A program made the translations under genes and the position numbers. Below are positions 1,240 to 14,611 of a DNA stretch of 32,650 nucleotides, in pieces; the first letter of the stretch is position 1; each line of letters begins with the position of its first letter. The notes beneath the pieces were generated by a model, which was not told where the DNA came from, did not search any database, and saw only the letters and a list, made by a program, of their open reading frames with translations. The DNA comes from Dehalococcoidia bacterium (lineage in GTDB: Bacteria > Chloroflexota > Dehalococcoidia > Tepidiformales > Tepidiformaceae), in contig JAKUNN010000004.1 of NCBI GenBank assembly GCA_022451885.1, positions 1-32,650 of the forward strand, given 5' to 3'.

Positions 1240-1320
1240 GCCGGCGGCCCATCTGAACGCTAGGTCGTATAACAGGTGTGAGTATGATATCTAAGATCGG
1301 TGCTTTTTAGGAGCAGTATT

Positions 1321-3426
1321 ATGGAAATTTTAATTTTTGCTATCGTTGCTGGCGTAATTGCCTTGGCCTTTGCAGGCTTGCGTGTTTTTGCGGTTCTTCG
1401 AGAAGATGAAGGTGACGAGACTATGCGCGGTATAGCTCGTTCTATTCAGCTTGGAGCTGCGGCATTTCTTAAGCGTGAGTACATAGTACTTTCAGGCTTT
1501 GTCGCAGTTGTATTTGTCATAATTCTACTCTTTATAGATTTAGATATTTTAGATAAGAATCCATTACGTGGATTTGATAGTAATGCTCCTGCAACTGCAA
1601 TTTCTTATTTGATTGGGGCTATTCTCTCGGCTGTTGCAGGGTATCTTGGTATGACTGTTGCGGTTCGTGCCAATGTTCGTACTGCAGCGAAAGCACGCGA
1701 CGGCTTAAATGGAGCGCTTCGAGTTGCTTTTAATTCAGGAACAGTGATGGGTATGACTGTCGTAGGGCTCGGCATTCTTGGTTTAGCTCTCTTGTACCTG
1801 ATTTGGCAAAATCCGATTCCTTTGGCTGGTTTTGCTTTTGGTGCATCGTCAATAGCACTTTTTGCTCGTGTTGGTGGTGGTATTTATACCAAGGCAGCTG
1901 ATGTTGGGGCAGACCTAGTTGGCAAAGTAGAGGCTGGGATTCCTGAGGATGATCCGCGTAACCCCGCGACTATTGCTGATAATGTTGGAGATAATGTCGG
2001 AGATGTTGCTGGGATGGGGGCTGATCTTTTTGAGTCTTATGTGGGTTCCGTTGTCGCCACGATGTCGCTTGCTGCTATAGCAATTGTTGGTGCTACTGGT
2101 ATTGGTGCAGGTTTCGGTGCATCTGACATTTTTCAAACCGGAGCAGATAATTTTAAGGGAGCTGCTGTTGTTTTGCCGCTTCTTGTTGCTGCTATAGGAA
2201 TTATTTCTGCGATCGTAGCTTCCTTTTTCGTTCGTACTGGTGAAGACTCGAGCCAAGGTCGCTTGCTTTGGGCATTGCGTGCAGGAGTTTATGGGGCCTC
2301 TATTTTGGTACTTATAGGTGCTGCAATCGCTATTGCGGTGATGGGATTAAAGTGGGATTTATTCTGGGCAATTCTGATAGGCCTTACGGCTGGACAACTC
2401 ATTGGTACAGTGACAGAAGGTTTTACGTCTACAGAAGGCTTTGCGATTGGACGTTTCCGTTATAGCCCAACTGTTAATTTAGCAAAACAGTCTGAGACTG
2501 GGGCAGGGCCAGTGTTAATCGGTGGCCTAAGTTTAGGTATGCTGTCCACAGCTATACCACTTGTCACTATTGTTGTTGCTATTGCTCTTGCCAATGAAGT
2601 TGCTGGTTTCTATGGTATTGCGCTTGCAGCTGTAGGTATGCTGGCTCCTTTAGGAGTGACTCTAGCGACCGATGCTTATGGGCCAGTTGCAGACAATGCG
2701 GGGGGAATTGCTGAGCAAGCATCTTTACCACCCGAGGTCCGAACTCGTACTGATGCATTAGATCAACTTGGGAATACTACTGCAGCTACAGGAAAAGGTT
2801 TTGCGATTGGTTCGGCAGCTCTTACAGCGCTCGCTCTTTTAGCAACTTATGCTTTTGTTACGAATATTACTACTCTCGATCTGTTGAACTGGGAAGTTAT
2901 GATTGGCGTATTAATTGGTGCGTTGATGCCATTTGTATTTGCTGCCCTTTCAATGGGTGCTGTTGGTAGAGCAGCACAAGCGATGGTGGAAGAAGTCCGT
3001 CGTCAGTTCCGGGAAAAACCTGGAATTATGGACGGCACCGAAGAACCTGATCATGAAAGAGCTGTGAGTATTTCAACTGATGGTGCACTTCGGGAGATGG
3101 TTGTGCCCGGTCTGCTTGCAGTGGTTGTTCCAATTATAGTCGGGGCAGTCATTAGTGCTGAGAGCCTTGGTGGCCTGCTTGTTGGTTCTATTGCTGCTGG
3201 TGCTATGTTGGCAATTATGATGGCAAATGCTGGCGGTGCGTGGGATAACGCAAAGAAATATGTTGAAGAGGGTCATTTTGGTGGTAAGGGATCTGAAGCT
3301 CATAAAGCCGCAGTTGTTGGTGATACAGTTGGCGATCCTTTCAAGGACACTTCTGGTCCTAGTCTGAACATTCTTCTAAAATTAATGGCGATTGTTGCCG
3401 TTGTTTTTGGGCCACTCTTTGTCTAG
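1321..3426 (+). CDS. hppA: K+-dependent membrane-bound pyrophosphatase (ion-pumping)
   Basis: This integral membrane enzyme hydrolyses pyrophosphate and pumps Na+ and/or H+ outward. The ATG at 1321 is preferred over an in-frame GTG at 1300 because AGGAG (1309-1313) lies 7 bases before it; this gives 701 residues, normal for the family, with many hydrophobic helices. The pyrophosphate-binding block [19 protein letters not shown] is intact. The block [10 protein letters not shown] (residues 484-493) has alanine at 488 and glycine at 491, where K+-independent enzymes have lysine and threonine, so I infer a K+-dependent enzyme. Glu238 in DLFESY matches the glutamate associated with Na+ transport in Na+-PPases; pumped-ion identity cannot be settled from this alone. 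The c-di-AMP riboswitch promoter begins 10 bases after its stop. Confidence 0.95.
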
Positions 3427-3435
3427 ATTTAGGGT

Positions 3436-3464
3436 TTGACAAAATAAATTTGGCTTGATATCTT
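3436..3464 (+). promoter_or_regulatory. Promoter of the c-di-AMP riboswitch transcript
   Basis: A perfect TTGACA -35 box (3436-3441) is followed after 17 bases by TATCTT (3459-3464). Transcription would start near 3471, just upstream of the riboswitch and only about 45 bases after the hppA stop codon. Confidence 0.65.
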
Positions 3465-3499
3465 TCTAGTGCTCCTTTATGGAGTTGCGCTTGGTGCTT

Positions 3500-3685
3500 T
3501 ACGTACCACCTGCAGAATGTGTGTGAACACATCGGGGAACCCAATAATGGGGTGAATAGGGCTTAATGCCCTTAGGGCAACCTTCCGCCCGAATCCGACA
3601 GCTAACCTCGTATGCAGACGGAAGGCCTGGTGAGCAGGAAGCTCGCTTAGAGGTCTCGTCCTCCTTTGAAAAATGGAGTTTTTTT
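3500..3685 (+). promoter_or_regulatory. ydaO-type cyclic di-AMP riboswitch with expression platform
   Basis: Conserved ydaO/yuaA aptamer words occur in the right order: GGGGAACCC (3535-3543), GGGGTGAAT (3549-3557), GGGCAACC (3575-3582) and CCGAATCCGACAGCTAACCT (3589-3608). A closing helix pairs CTGCA (3510-3514) with TGCAG (3613-3617), and a side hairpin pairs ATGTGT (3517-3522) with ACACAT (3527-3532). Alternative pairings are visible: CCTTCCG inside the aptamer with CGGAAGG just after it, and GAGGT (3650-3654) with either ACCTC in the aptamer or CCTC at the base of the terminator. This fits ligand-controlled termination. Known ydaO switches are turned off by c-di-AMP and often control K+ or osmolyte transport and cell wall genes. 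Identification is by conserved words, not by a covariance model. Confidence 0.88.
3661..3685 (+). terminator. Intrinsic terminator of the c-di-AMP riboswitch
   Basis: CTCCTTT (3661-3667) pairs with AATGGAG (3672-3678) around a GAAA loop, with one T-T mismatch, followed by seven Ts (3679-3685). The 3' arm also contains GGAG, the only ribosome binding site for the gene starting at 3689, so the hairpin could block both transcription and translation. Confidence 0.72.
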
Positions 3686-3688
3686 ATT

Positions 3689-3907
3689 ATGCCTGCTTTG
3701 CAAGAAGCGCCACCGGCAAACTGCCCTAAGTGCAGCGGTGCAATCGTTATCGAAAGAGATTGGCACGGAACTTATGGAAGTTGCATTATGTGTGGTTATG
3801 TACATGAAGTTTTAACTCGGCCGCCAGTTGATCTGGCAGCTGAAGAAGCGGCTATGCCTGTTCGGCAGCGTCGTCGTCAGCCGTCCCACGGTAAGTTGCG
3901 GCTATAG
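3689..3907 (+). CDS. Small zinc-ribbon protein under c-di-AMP riboswitch control
   Basis: A 72-residue protein with CPKC (residues 13-16) and CIMC about 20 residues later, consistent with one zinc ribbon, then an acidic stretch and a basic C-terminal tail (RQRRRQ). No transmembrane segment or signal peptide is visible. The start at 3689 is chosen because GGAG (3675-3678) lies 10 bases upstream; a longer in-frame reading from 3566 would run through the riboswitch and is not credible. The basic tail could bind nucleic acid, but that is inference. I do not recognise a named family. A terminator follows at 3928-3951, so it appears to be a single-gene transcription unit. Confidence 0.75.
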   Translation: MPALQEAPPANCPKCSGAIVIERDWHGTYGSCIMCGYVHEVLTRPPVDLAAEEAAMPVRQRRRQPSHGKLRL

Positions 3908-3954: not shown

Positions 3955-4051
3955 AGGTGTTTATTTACTGTAACAGTAGTAAACAAGCACCCTAATGCGA
4001 GTGGCCCCTAACCACAGGGGCTTTCCGCTTCCATCAAGGAGTTTTTGATGG
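3955..4051 (+). promoter_or_regulatory. Structured leader: three hairpins before the 94-residue gene
   Basis: Three inverted repeats lie in a row. The first (about 3955-3992) is an imperfect stem with GGTG/CACC at its base and TACTG-TAA-CAGTA at its tip. The second is a perfect GCCCCT-AACCAC-AGGGGC hairpin (about 4004-4021) followed by only three Ts. The third pairs CCATCAA (4031-4037) with TTGATGG (4045-4051), leaving the Shine-Dalgarno GGAG in its loop and burying the ATG in its stem. No known riboswitch class is recognised. The first element could instead be a DNA operator. Confidence 0.45.
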
Positions 4052-4332
4052 CTTATGTACGTATGTCAATTGCTAGTCCAAGTGCAGGAAAAGCCGTAGA
4101 GGCTATCCAGCTTATGCACGAAATCAATAATCAGATCTCAGATATTAACGAGTGCATAAATACTTTTGTGATACAACCGCAAGATGAGGCTGGGGAAATT
4201 ATACGAGTGGCTGTGTTTAGGGATTATGATTCGTCTGAGAATGAAAAGTATGTTGAGTCGATGGGTTTGTTTTCTAACGAGATGAATCGTTGCTTTGCGA
4301 AGAATCAGGAAGAAAAGGCATTTTTTAGCTAG
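4048..4332 (+). CDS. Unrecognised 94-residue protein (possible dimeric alpha-beta barrel fold)
   Basis: A soluble 94-residue protein starting MAYVRMSIASPSAGKAVEA, with AGGAG six bases before the ATG. The pattern of a short N-terminal strand, a helix, then a strand reading IIRVAVFRDY resembles small ABM-like (antibiotic biosynthesis monooxygenase) domain proteins that bind small molecules as dimers. This is only a resemblance in size and layout, and no catalytic residues can be named. It is preceded by the structured leader and converges with the solute-binding protein gene, 24 bases away. The start codon lies inside a hairpin, which suggests translational control. Confidence 0.7.
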   Translation: MAYVRMSIASPSAGKAVEAIQLMHEINNQISDINECINTFVIQPQDEAGEIIRVAVFRDYDSSENEKYVESMGLFSNEMNRCFAKNQEEKAFFS

Positions 4333-9439: not shown

Positions 9440-9898
9440 TCAGTTACTGAGTAGGTTCTCTTTAATTTGTACCATTTCGAGTGCTGCGTTTGCTGCTTCT
9501 GAACCAGAATTTCCTGATGTGCCGCCGGCTCGGGCCAAGGCTTGTTCAGTAGTTTTACATGTTAGTACACCAAAAATCACAGGTATTTGTGTGTCCAGGG
9601 CAACTTGTTGAATACCACCTGCAGCTTGTTCTGAAACATGCTTATAGTGGTCAGTCTCCCCAAGTATGACTGCGCCCAAACAAATCACGGCATCGAATTG
9701 GTTCGATGCCGTTGCCCAACGTGCTGCGGTTGGTATTTCAAATGAACCGGGGACCCAAGTGGTAGTAATGTTTTTTTCAGGTACCCCTTTTTCTATCAAG
9801 CATTGTTTTGCCCCATCCAAAAGTTTTTGGGTAACGAAGTTGTTCCATCGGGCGACAATGATTGCGAATTGAAGGGTTTTCGTTTCCTTAGTCATCAC
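9440..9898 (-). CDS. ribH: 6,7-dimethyl-8-ribityllumazine synthase
   Basis: This enzyme condenses 5-amino-6-ribitylaminouracil with 3,4-dihydroxy-2-butanone 4-phosphate, the penultimate step of riboflavin synthesis. At 152 residues it is typical and likely forms a large shell-like oligomer. Visible family blocks are ARWNNFV (pyrimidine site), WVPGSFEIP, GAVILGETDHYKHV with catalytic H84, and GVLTCKTTEQALARAG. Near the C-terminus it reads GNSG where most members have GNKG, a substitution in the phosphate-binding region. The ATG overlaps the end of ribBA by 11 bases, which suggests translational coupling. It is the last gene of the operon controlled by the FMN riboswitch; no clear terminator is seen after it. 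Confidence 0.96.
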   Translation of the reverse strand: MMTKETKTLQFAIIVARWNNFVTQKLLDGAKQCLIEKGVPEKNITTTWVPGSFEIPTAARWATASNQFDAVICLGAVILGETDHYKHVSEQAAGGIQQVALDTQIPVIFGVLTCKTTEQALARAGGTSGNSGSEAANAALEMVQIKENLLSN

Positions 9899-11159
9899 TG
9901 GTACCCATGTCTTGAGGGATCTCAGAATTTTCGAGTAAGTGTCCCATTCTTTCGCGCTTGGTACTCAAATATCCGACATTGAATTTATTGGGCGGAACTT
10001 CTAGTGGAACGCGCTCAACCACATCTATACCATAGCTATTCAGCCCACTTACTTTGATTGGGTTGTTTGTAAGTAGTCGTACTTTACTGATTCCTAAATC
10101 AAGTAATATCTGCATTGCAATTCCATAATCTCGGCTGTCTTCAGGGAAGCCTAGGGCAAGATTGGCTTCTACTGTGTCTAAGCCTGCATCTTGCAATTGG
10201 TAGGCTTTAAGTTTGTTGTGTAAGCCTATTCCTCGGCCCTCTTGTCGCAGATACAATAATACGCCTCCTTCTGTAGCGATTTTTTCCATAGAAAGGTTTT
10301 TTTGTTCGCCGCAATCGCAGCGCATTGATCCAAAAACATCACCCGTAAGACATTGATCGTGAACACGTACGAGGGTTGGTTTATCATCTTGGTGATCTAC
10401 AGGTAAGTTAACGATAGCTACATGCTCTTCGGAGCTCTGATTTGCTTGATAGGCTACGATCTTCATTTCCCCATATGGAGTTGGCAGTTGAGTTTCTGCA
10501 ATTTTTTGAACTGTTCTTTCTGTTTTCAGTCTATGTTTGATTAAGGTTTCAATGGTTAAAATTTTTAAGTCGTGTCTTCGAGCGAACTTTTTAAGCTCGG
10601 GCATTCGTGCCATTTCGCCATCTCCTTTCATGATTTCACAGATCACTGAAGCCTTTTTTAGCCCAGATAGCTGACAAAGATCGACACTTGCTTCAGTTTG
10701 TCCAGCACGTACTAAAACCCCACCCTCTCTCGCTCTTAAAGGGAACATGTGTCCTGGTTTCGCTAAATCTTCGGGTACCGTGTTCGGGTCTAGGAGTACT
10801 TCAACTGTTCTTGCTCGATCAGCGGCACTGATACCAGTTGAAACCCCGGTTCGTGCCTCGACAGAAACGGTGAACGGAGTTTCAAATTGGGAAGTATTAT
10901 CACCGGGGTTAACCATCATCGGAATTTGGAGCTGTTTAACACGTTCATCTGCTAAAGCGATACAAATTAGTCCTCTGCCGTAGCGTGCCATGAAATTAAT
11001 TGTTTCAGATGTGACAAATTCTGCAGCTATTGCCAGATCACCTTCGTTTTCACGGTCCTCGTCGTCAGTGATGATGACGAACTTGCCTTTTTTAAATTCT
11101 TCTATTGCTTCGTCTACAGTTGCAATGAAATTAGCGCTGGTTGAATCTTGGGCACTCAT
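9888..11159 (-). CDS. ribBA: Bifunctional 3,4-dihydroxy-2-butanone 4-phosphate synthase / GTP cyclohydrolase II
   Basis: A two-domain enzyme that supplies both precursors of riboflavin. The N-terminal half (to about residue 205) is the DHBP synthase, with [16 protein letters not shown] and [20 protein letters not shown]. The C-terminal half is GTP cyclohydrolase II, with the zinc ligands in [15 protein letters not shown], the catalytic [13 protein letters not shown] and [15 protein letters not shown], then LLTNNPIKV. The length of 423 residues is usual for RibBA. It overlaps ribE by 4 bases (ATGA type) and ribH by 11 bases, so the three genes are almost certainly co-translated from one message. 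No ribD lies in this cluster. Confidence 0.97.
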
Positions 11160-11752
11160 ACATCTATTCCTGTTTCAGATTCCCGTAAAAACTGTTCCAC
11201 ATATCGACCAATAATATCAGTTTCTATATTGACTTTTGTTCCATGTTTTTGTTTTGCAAGTGTTGTTTGGCTTTGAGTGTATTGCACCAATGAAACGCTA
11301 AAACTTTCAGAATCTTTTGCGATTACAGTAAGACTTATTCCATCAATACAGACAGGTCCTTTAACAAGTATGTATCTAAGTAATGTTTGTTCAACACTTA
11401 TTTTTACTATTAGCGCATCTTGTTCAGGTGTAATTGAATCTATTTTTCCGATCCCCTCTGTTACACCTCTGACTAGATGTCCGCTTAGCCGACTATTTGG
11501 CTGGACGCTACGTTCTAAATTCACTATGTCTCCGCCTTGCAGTTCACCTAGGGCAGAACGACGATATGTTTCAGGCATTATGTTGGCGGTAAAAGCATTG
11601 TTTTCAATAGTGGTGATAGTTAAATCTACCCCGTTAATAGCTATTGAATCACCCAGGCCTGAATCCTCAAGTATTTTTGGTGCACTAATATGAAGAACAC
11701 CTTTACTGTTTTCAATCACTTTACCTAGTTCTTCAATTATTCCGGTAAACAT
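11156..11752 (-). CDS. ribE: Riboflavin synthase, alpha subunit type
   Basis: It dismutates two lumazine molecules to riboflavin. The start [12 protein letters not shown] and two tandem lumazine-binding repeats (about residues 1-86 and 87-190) give 198 residues, the family norm. Repeat one has [14 protein letters not shown] and [13 protein letters not shown]. Repeat two has [14 protein letters not shown] and [12 protein letters not shown]. Two positions are unusual: V97 stands where most enzymes have the histidine of the GHxxxGH block, and D43 replaces the common cysteine of NGxCLTV. The operon context makes riboflavin synthesis very likely, but these active-site changes deserve attention. 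The ATG directly follows a short hairpin of the riboswitch expression platform. Confidence 0.94.
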
Positions 11753-11816
11753 CCCCTATACCTTGCGAAAGGGGTGGTGCTGATGTTGTATACATCAGAT
11801 ACAAGGTTGCCCTTGT
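11753..11816 (-). promoter_or_regulatory. Expression platform of the FMN riboswitch, translational type
   Basis: Read on the minus strand, three hairpins lie between the aptamer and ribE: ACAAGG/CCTTGT (11811-11816 with 11801-11806), CTGATGT/ACATCAG (11792-11798 with 11780-11786), and CCCCT/AGGGG (11770-11774 with 11753-11757). The last ends at the ATG and encloses the AAGG ribosome binding site, which can also pair as CCTT-TCGC-AAGG. There is no T run, so control of translation is more likely than termination. Confidence 0.55.
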
Positions 11817-11940
11817 TTATCTCTACCATCCGGACTATAACCGTCGGCCTCGGAATTTCGCCGAGTCAGTCCACTTAAGTGGAGTCGCGGGCTTTAACCG
11901 CCGGTGAGGAGTTCCACCTCGCCCCGAGAACGCTCTTACA
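11815..11940 (-). promoter_or_regulatory. FMN riboswitch (RFN element)
   Basis: On the minus strand the RFN signature words appear in order: TCTCGGGGCGAGGTGGAA, CTCACCGGCGGT, AAGCCCGCGA, then GGCGAAATTCCGAGGCCGAC, GGTTATAGTCCGGATGG and the closing GAGA. All six arms can be traced, with the CCACTTAAGTGG loop arm in the variable position. It sits directly upstream of ribE. FMN binding in this class represses riboflavin synthesis genes, and here would act on the whole ribE-ribBA-ribH operon. Confidence 0.96.
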
Positions 11941-14423: not shown

Positions 14424-14540
14424 TCCTGGTGGCTAGAGCGAGGCGGAACCACCCGTTCCCATCCCGAACACGGAAGTGAAACGTCTCAGCGCTGACGATA
14501 CTGCTTGGGTAACTAAGTGGGAAAATAGGCCGTTGCCAGG
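14424..14540 (+). rRNA. rrf: 5S ribosomal RNA
   Basis: A 117-base 5S rRNA. The ends TCCTGGTGGC and GTTGCCAGG pair as helix I. The conserved core CGGAACCACCCGTTCCCATC, then CCGAACACGGAAGTGAAACG, is unmistakable, and the 3' half carries the loop E region (CGATACTGCTTGGG). No 16S or 23S rRNA or tRNA lies nearby, so this copy is transcribed alone from its own promoter. TTTTCTAATT follows the terminal helix and probably serves as its terminator. Confidence 0.96.
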
Positions 14541-14611
14541 TTTTCTAATTAAGGAGTATCCAGAGAATTACTGTTCGTGCAGAATAGTTTTGGATCAATC
14601 AAGACTTTTCC

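Follow-up and report, generated by a model that had tools for sequence, protein, structure and literature searches.

According to a review (PMC7266159), riboswitches of the c-di-AMP class control transporters for K+ and amino acids as well as proteins of cell-wall remodelling and of osmotic shock; in B. subtilis ydaO, transcription terminates on ligand binding (PMC5575661). Genes under riboswitch control show what a signal serves. Here we analyzed a stretch of 32,650 nucleotides (the window) from a Dehalococcoidia draft genome (1.43 Mb, 87 contigs, 87% complete), which belongs to the GTDB family containing Tepidiforma flava. The window includes an ordinary FMN riboswitch (RF00050, 99.7 bits, 11814-11935, minus strand) upstream of an apparent riboflavin synthesis cluster (9440-11752, assigned by eye), and a 5S rRNA gene (14425-14541, plus strand, 92.6 bits); no Rfam match to other rRNA genes was obtained in the window, and the rRNA genes appear to be split. 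On the whole, the best explanation of a separate locus in the window, as read from its sequence, is that a c-di-AMP riboswitch probably controls a small zinc-ribbon protein, perhaps together with a second gene.

The first-pass annotation had proposed a ydaO-type aptamer here, to be checked by a covariance search, and cmscan indeed recovers RF00379 at 3501-3629 of the plus strand over the full model (1-134) with 84.6 bits (E 1.5e-18), far over the gathering score of 38 bits. The aptamer contains a loop-tail pseudoknot of 7 bp (3581-3625, plus strand), in which CCTTCCG (3581-3587) pairs with CGGAAGG (3619-3625). Across 102 relatives this helix covaries, the longest helix having a mean of 6.33 for each sequence's own loop and tail versus 5.52 for re-dealt partners and a maximum of 5.77 in 200 shuffles. 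The invariant core of the aptamer includes CAGCTAACC. A sigma-70-type promoter, TTGACA-17 nt-TATCTT at 3436-3464 (plus strand), had likewise been claimed, and its match of 10/12 is, taken alone, near chance. The claim is nevertheless upheld by conservation: the best promoter-like match upstream of the aptamers of 76 relatives averages 9.5/12 versus 7.0 in shuffles, and TTGACA is found in nearly all relatives listed, about 64-93 nt upstream of the aptamer. Judged from these features, the assignment of a genuine RNA sensor of the c-di-AMP riboswitch class to this locus holds.

Downstream, 60 nt from the end of the aptamer, begins the ORF (3689-3907, plus strand) that had been described as encoding a 72-residue zinc-ribbon protein with a basic tail, here called family A. 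The description is confirmed by a conserved CxxC-x16-CxxC pattern; members from Tepidiformaceae share 83-89% identity with the window's protein and those from other Dehalococcoidia families 51-60%, and a sample of 400 genomes from across the phylum gave full-length matches (>100 bits) in its own class only. An alignment of 48 sequences shows no variation at the four cysteines of the two CxxC knuckles, at E22 and D24 or within the tail RRRQPSHG, and the last 13 residues read QRRRQPSHGKLRL in 78 of 80 sequences, with synonymous codons varying at every position. An invariant tail combined with free synonymous variation points to selection at the protein level, not to an RNA or DNA element, and by this coding signature the 72-aa ORF is a real gene. 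A longer ORF (3566-3907, 113 aa) was discarded, as it starts inside the aptamer and its upstream extension is unconserved.

The same riboswitch-gene pair, which the first-pass annotation had suggested looking for in related genomes, is widespread. Among 80 named loci, chosen by protein similarity alone and thereafter searched for aptamers with a model built from those of the lineage, 77 have an aptamer close upstream of the matched ORF, in the same orientation and at a distance of 21-113 nt. RF00379 is moreover present in all 12 genomes with a full-length family A match (E < 1e-15) versus 20 of 61 overall, all within the same class and outside the family, a comparison that yields no probability since the genomes are related. 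A link between riboswitch and gene is very likely. The gene occurs without an adjacent intact aptamer at three loci, L072 and L078 (none recognisable) and L113 (degraded), and genome G057 of family f21 has kept a family A gene with no recognisable aptamer beside it. The window's genome itself holds a second, 88% identical family A copy without an aptamer (L146, contig C56, 4542-4757). Both copies share PPANCPKC, which is absent from the named relatives, suggesting a duplication within the lineage. Together, the aptamer-less loci and the aptamer-less second copy indicate that riboswitch control is not essential to the function of the gene. The C56 copy, which escapes this control, is a natural counterpart to the copy under the riboswitch.

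The expression platform hints at how such control may be exerted. In Tepidiformaceae, the aptamer tail continues into a hairpin, GGCCT-GCGAGC/GCTCGC-AGGTC, with 94% of cells paired in 24 sequences and 9 cells changed on both sides, exceeding all 500 shuffles; in the window it extends over 3617-3660 of the plus strand (cores GGCCT/AGGTC and GTGAGC/GCTCGC, -21.5 kcal/mol, z -2.8). At least six T separate aptamer and start in 20 of 77 leaders, and where a T-run follows the platform hairpin, in part of the relatives such as Tepidiforma flava (L079), the two make up an intrinsic terminator. In the window this T-run has been lost and is replaced by TCTCGTCC. A terminator had instead been placed at a CTCC/GGAG hairpin immediately downstream (3661-3685, plus strand), a proposal we reject: the structure is weak (4 + 2 pairs, -4.8 kcal/mol, z -1.2), is not called by the terminator scan and is unconserved, the conserved and covarying hairpin being the upstream one. 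The associated claim of a ribosome binding site within the 3' arm of the terminator survives in its position, with the Shine-Dalgarno GGAG (3675-3678) located in the 3' arm of CTCC/GGAG before seven T (3679-3685), but not in the identity of the terminator.

Inspection by eye points to an alternative pairing between GAGG in the first hairpin (3650-3653) and CCTC (3660-3663), the latter being the word that is otherwise paired to the ribosome binding site, and similar GAGG and CCTC words are seen in many relatives as well as in the leader of the C9 riboswitch of the window's genome, where a platform shape like that of the window recurs. From the leaders we infer translation control in the window and termination control in relatives. 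No clean mutually exclusive pair is evident in the platform, where the 5' arm of the hairpin overlaps the pseudoknot tail in part only. Two further candidate pairings, also considered by eye, were set aside: no conserved antiterminator partner for the 5' arm is seen upstream of the aptamer, and several relatives cannot form the pairing of the hairpin loop with the start-codon region (AGCAGG with CCTGCT). The reviewed precedent for the class is an OFF switch (PMC5575661), which may or may not hold for the window.

As for the ligand, a diadenylate cyclase gene had been named as a further check, and the window's genome does encode CdaA (TIGR00159, 208 bits, with a CdaA_N membrane domain), and a gene for a YbbR-repeat protein comes next, in the usual cdaA-cdaR order; we infer that c-di-AMP is made via CdaA in this organism. 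The genome has three c-di-AMP riboswitches (RF00379). Another of these precedes a 50-aa ORF, for which no homologue was found in the 60 relatives searched, and then an MFS transporter. The riboswitch at C25:19680-19824 (L003) precedes a radical SAM protein of the KamA family; this protein is related to lysine 2,3-aminomutase, scores under the cut-offs of the models and would presumably fit osmolyte synthesis, perhaps of beta-lysine.

These data bear on the possibility that the aptamer is a decayed or retuned relic without a c-di-AMP response, the gene being simply expressed from the upstream promoter. Such decay would be congruent with the U-run after the conserved hairpin having been lost in the lineage of the window, and with the aptamer being absent from some relatives and from the second copy. 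It is however very improbable considering that the aptamer core is intact, with its pseudoknot and high score, that the genome retains three aptamers of this type along with CdaA, and that the similar platform shape is encountered again at the C9 riboswitch. A different objection concerns which gene is served. A 94-aa ORF (4048-4332, plus strand), with no Pfam match, may be a second gene of the transcript, and as 40 of 73 loci carry a homologue of it 58-225 nt downstream, it could represent the main controlled function, with the zinc-ribbon ORF accessory or leader-like. We regard this as quite unlikely, since the homologue was not found in the remaining 33 loci, where the zinc-ribbon gene still lies behind the aptamer, since the two genes are 140 nt apart in the window with a strong hairpin (-19 kcal/mol) between them, and since the zinc-ribbon protein is far better conserved. 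The earlier notion of a switch dedicated to one small gene is likely to be correct, but is weakened by the loci that possess the second gene. On the other side of the promoter, a membrane pyrophosphatase gene (1300-3426, PF03030, 857 bits) ends 10 nt before it and offers a possible link to ion balance. Homologues of this gene were found at 21 of the 80 named loci, and these loci all fall within L065-L096, which are the closest relatives. The neighbourhood was abandoned as a guide to function, as neighbours vary save for the second gene and the pyrophosphatase (21 loci).

What the protein itself does was addressed by profile and fold comparisons. Every Pfam match of the window's protein (P0001) is under the curated cut-off, with 17.8 bits versus 29 for Zn_Ribbon_TF, and a PDB sequence search returned nothing below E 0.1. 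Weak profile matches within the 48 members are to the TFIIB zinc ribbon (39), RPB9 (30) and RUBY_RBDX (31). An AlphaFold2 model (mean pLDDT 74) displays a zinc-ribbon core with strands within residues 18-41, a helix at 46-55 and a flexible tail; the best fold neighbours, all weak, are RPC10/RPB9 ribbons of RNA polymerases, with RPC10 of RNA polymerase III on top, at a best Foldseek E of 0.07 and with weak fold matches expected for any zinc ribbon. Near-invariant basic tails are typical of proteins docking on nucleic acid, the ribosome or RNA polymerase. The combination of such a tail with the weak RPC10/RPB9/TFIIB-type matches favours a small regulator, and our best guess from the model is a TFIIB/RPB9-like zinc ribbon that would bind nucleic acid, RNA polymerase or the ribosome; that family A acts as a small regulator with its dose set by c-di-AMP is a tentative proposal. 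Its main rival casts the protein as a factor for metal handling or redox chemistry (rubredoxin-like, zinc storage or chaperone), a role in keeping with the weak RUBY_RBDX matches, the four cysteines in two CxxC knuckles and the existence of unrelated small double-CxxC families under the same control. We consider this role unlikely, because metal binding leaves the near-invariant basic tail unexplained and because TFIIB-type matches are at least as frequent.

The small-regulator reading gains context from the other riboswitches of the class. We scanned 112 further c-di-AMP riboswitches, of the window's genome and its relatives in the class, for small ORFs (40-180 aa) with two CxxC motifs within 500 nt downstream, and found such an ORF behind 32 of them. 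The same scan yielded 1.1% when started from random positions in related loci and 1.3% when started behind long ORFs. These ORFs form unrelated families, with single cases including L038 and L039. Family B, of about 60 aa (58-62) and unrelated to family A, has the pattern WWRRL...CPEC...CPGCH...PEWRFG, and its 21 full-length copies in 21 genomes are without exception behind an RF00379 match (L041-L047, L049, L053, L055, L057, L063, L181, L183, L185-L187, L199, L221, L232 and L234); family C, of about 100 aa, is mixed, some copies being listed next to a riboswitch and others not. Each family may be explicable by one founding event, and the independent evidence is then a handful of families rather than 32 points. 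Cultured Tepidiforma flava carries both A and B. Elsewhere in Chloroflexota, none of 25 riboswitches examined precedes a double-CxxC small ORF. The first-pass annotation had emphasized a target that is not a transporter; a zinc ribbon does fall outside the known targets, but is not unusual in this lineage, where small zinc-ribbon targets recur.

Other arrangements were also encountered. Outside the class, small ORFs behind riboswitches at L266, L267 and L275 have HCPVC...H motifs, like single C2H2 zinc fingers, with a single CxxC and two His in some cases, and the riboswitches at L258 and L262 precede small ORFs that by eye resemble the c-di-AMP receptor PstA/DarA. Proteins of the trehalose-6-phosphate synthase type stand behind the L035 and L168 riboswitches, a check against glycosyltransferase family 20 having been made for the L168 protein only.

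Aggregated, the data can be accommodated in the following scheme. The promoter just after the pyrophosphatase gene would yield a leader RNA that folds as a c-di-AMP riboswitch controlling one zinc-ribbon protein, and perhaps a second small gene as well. c-di-AMP made by CdaA would bind the aptamer, and the bound and free states would alter the 3617-3660 hairpin and thereby access to the ribosome binding site here, or transcription termination instead in relatives that keep the U-run. The c-di-AMP level, reflecting osmotic, K+ or envelope state, would then set the dose of a small regulator; in a weaker step of the scheme, the invariant basic tail of this regulator would attach it to nucleic acid, RNA polymerase or the ribosome. 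Several small zinc-ribbon proteins, unrelated to each other and with family A among them, would be used in this manner in Dehalococcoidia. More speculatively still, c-di-AMP may act largely via RNA in this class, with riboswitches dosing several small, stand-alone zinc-ribbon proteins, unrelated to each other, which would modulate RNA polymerase, the ribosome or nucleic acid; if true, this would be a class of c-di-AMP effectors not described before.

No report joining a c-di-AMP riboswitch and a zinc ribbon was found in the literature searched, which did not cover the primary gene-association papers (Block 2010, Nelson 2013), where an earlier mention of the small ORFs as 'hypothetical protein' is possible. 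Titles and abstracts of the SAR202/Chloroflexi literature held nothing bearing on the pairing, and the Tepidiforma paper PMC10284905 does not mention riboswitch or di-AMP. Within that literature, neither the target family nor the repeated use of small zinc-ribbon genes was found, and these would be what is new here. The idea of an undescribed part of c-di-AMP signalling fits as a prediction, and is strengthened by the further small zinc-ribbon families under the same riboswitch. In this little-studied Chloroflexota class, riboswitches familiar from K+, osmolyte and cell-wall genes would repeatedly have tiny zinc-ribbon proteins under their control, and a family of anonymous small proteins thereby becomes a part of c-di-AMP signalling that can be tested.

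Compared with known systems, the protein resembles TFIIB/RPB9/RPC10 zinc ribbons in its CxxC-x16-CxxC pattern, the three strands of the model and its weak profile and fold matches, but differs in being a stand-alone bacterial protein of 72 aa with its own helix and a near-invariant tail, under the cut-offs. ZifS (TTHA0897) of Thermus thermophilus (PDB 8yoz) is likewise a small bacterial zinc-finger protein and a weak Foldseek match (E 0.17), whereas identity is 22% over 45 columns; no paper on ZifS was found in the literature searched, and we know of no c-di-AMP link for it. Unlike in B. subtilis ydaO, the U-run of the window is placed elsewhere and the ribosome binding site is within a hairpin. 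In relation to RF00379 at large, this is an ordinary riboswitch of the class, having a full-length match over the cut-off, the pseudoknot, its own promoter and a gene downstream; it is set apart by its target, an uncharacterised zinc ribbon in place of the transporters, cell-wall and osmotic-shock proteins known for the class.
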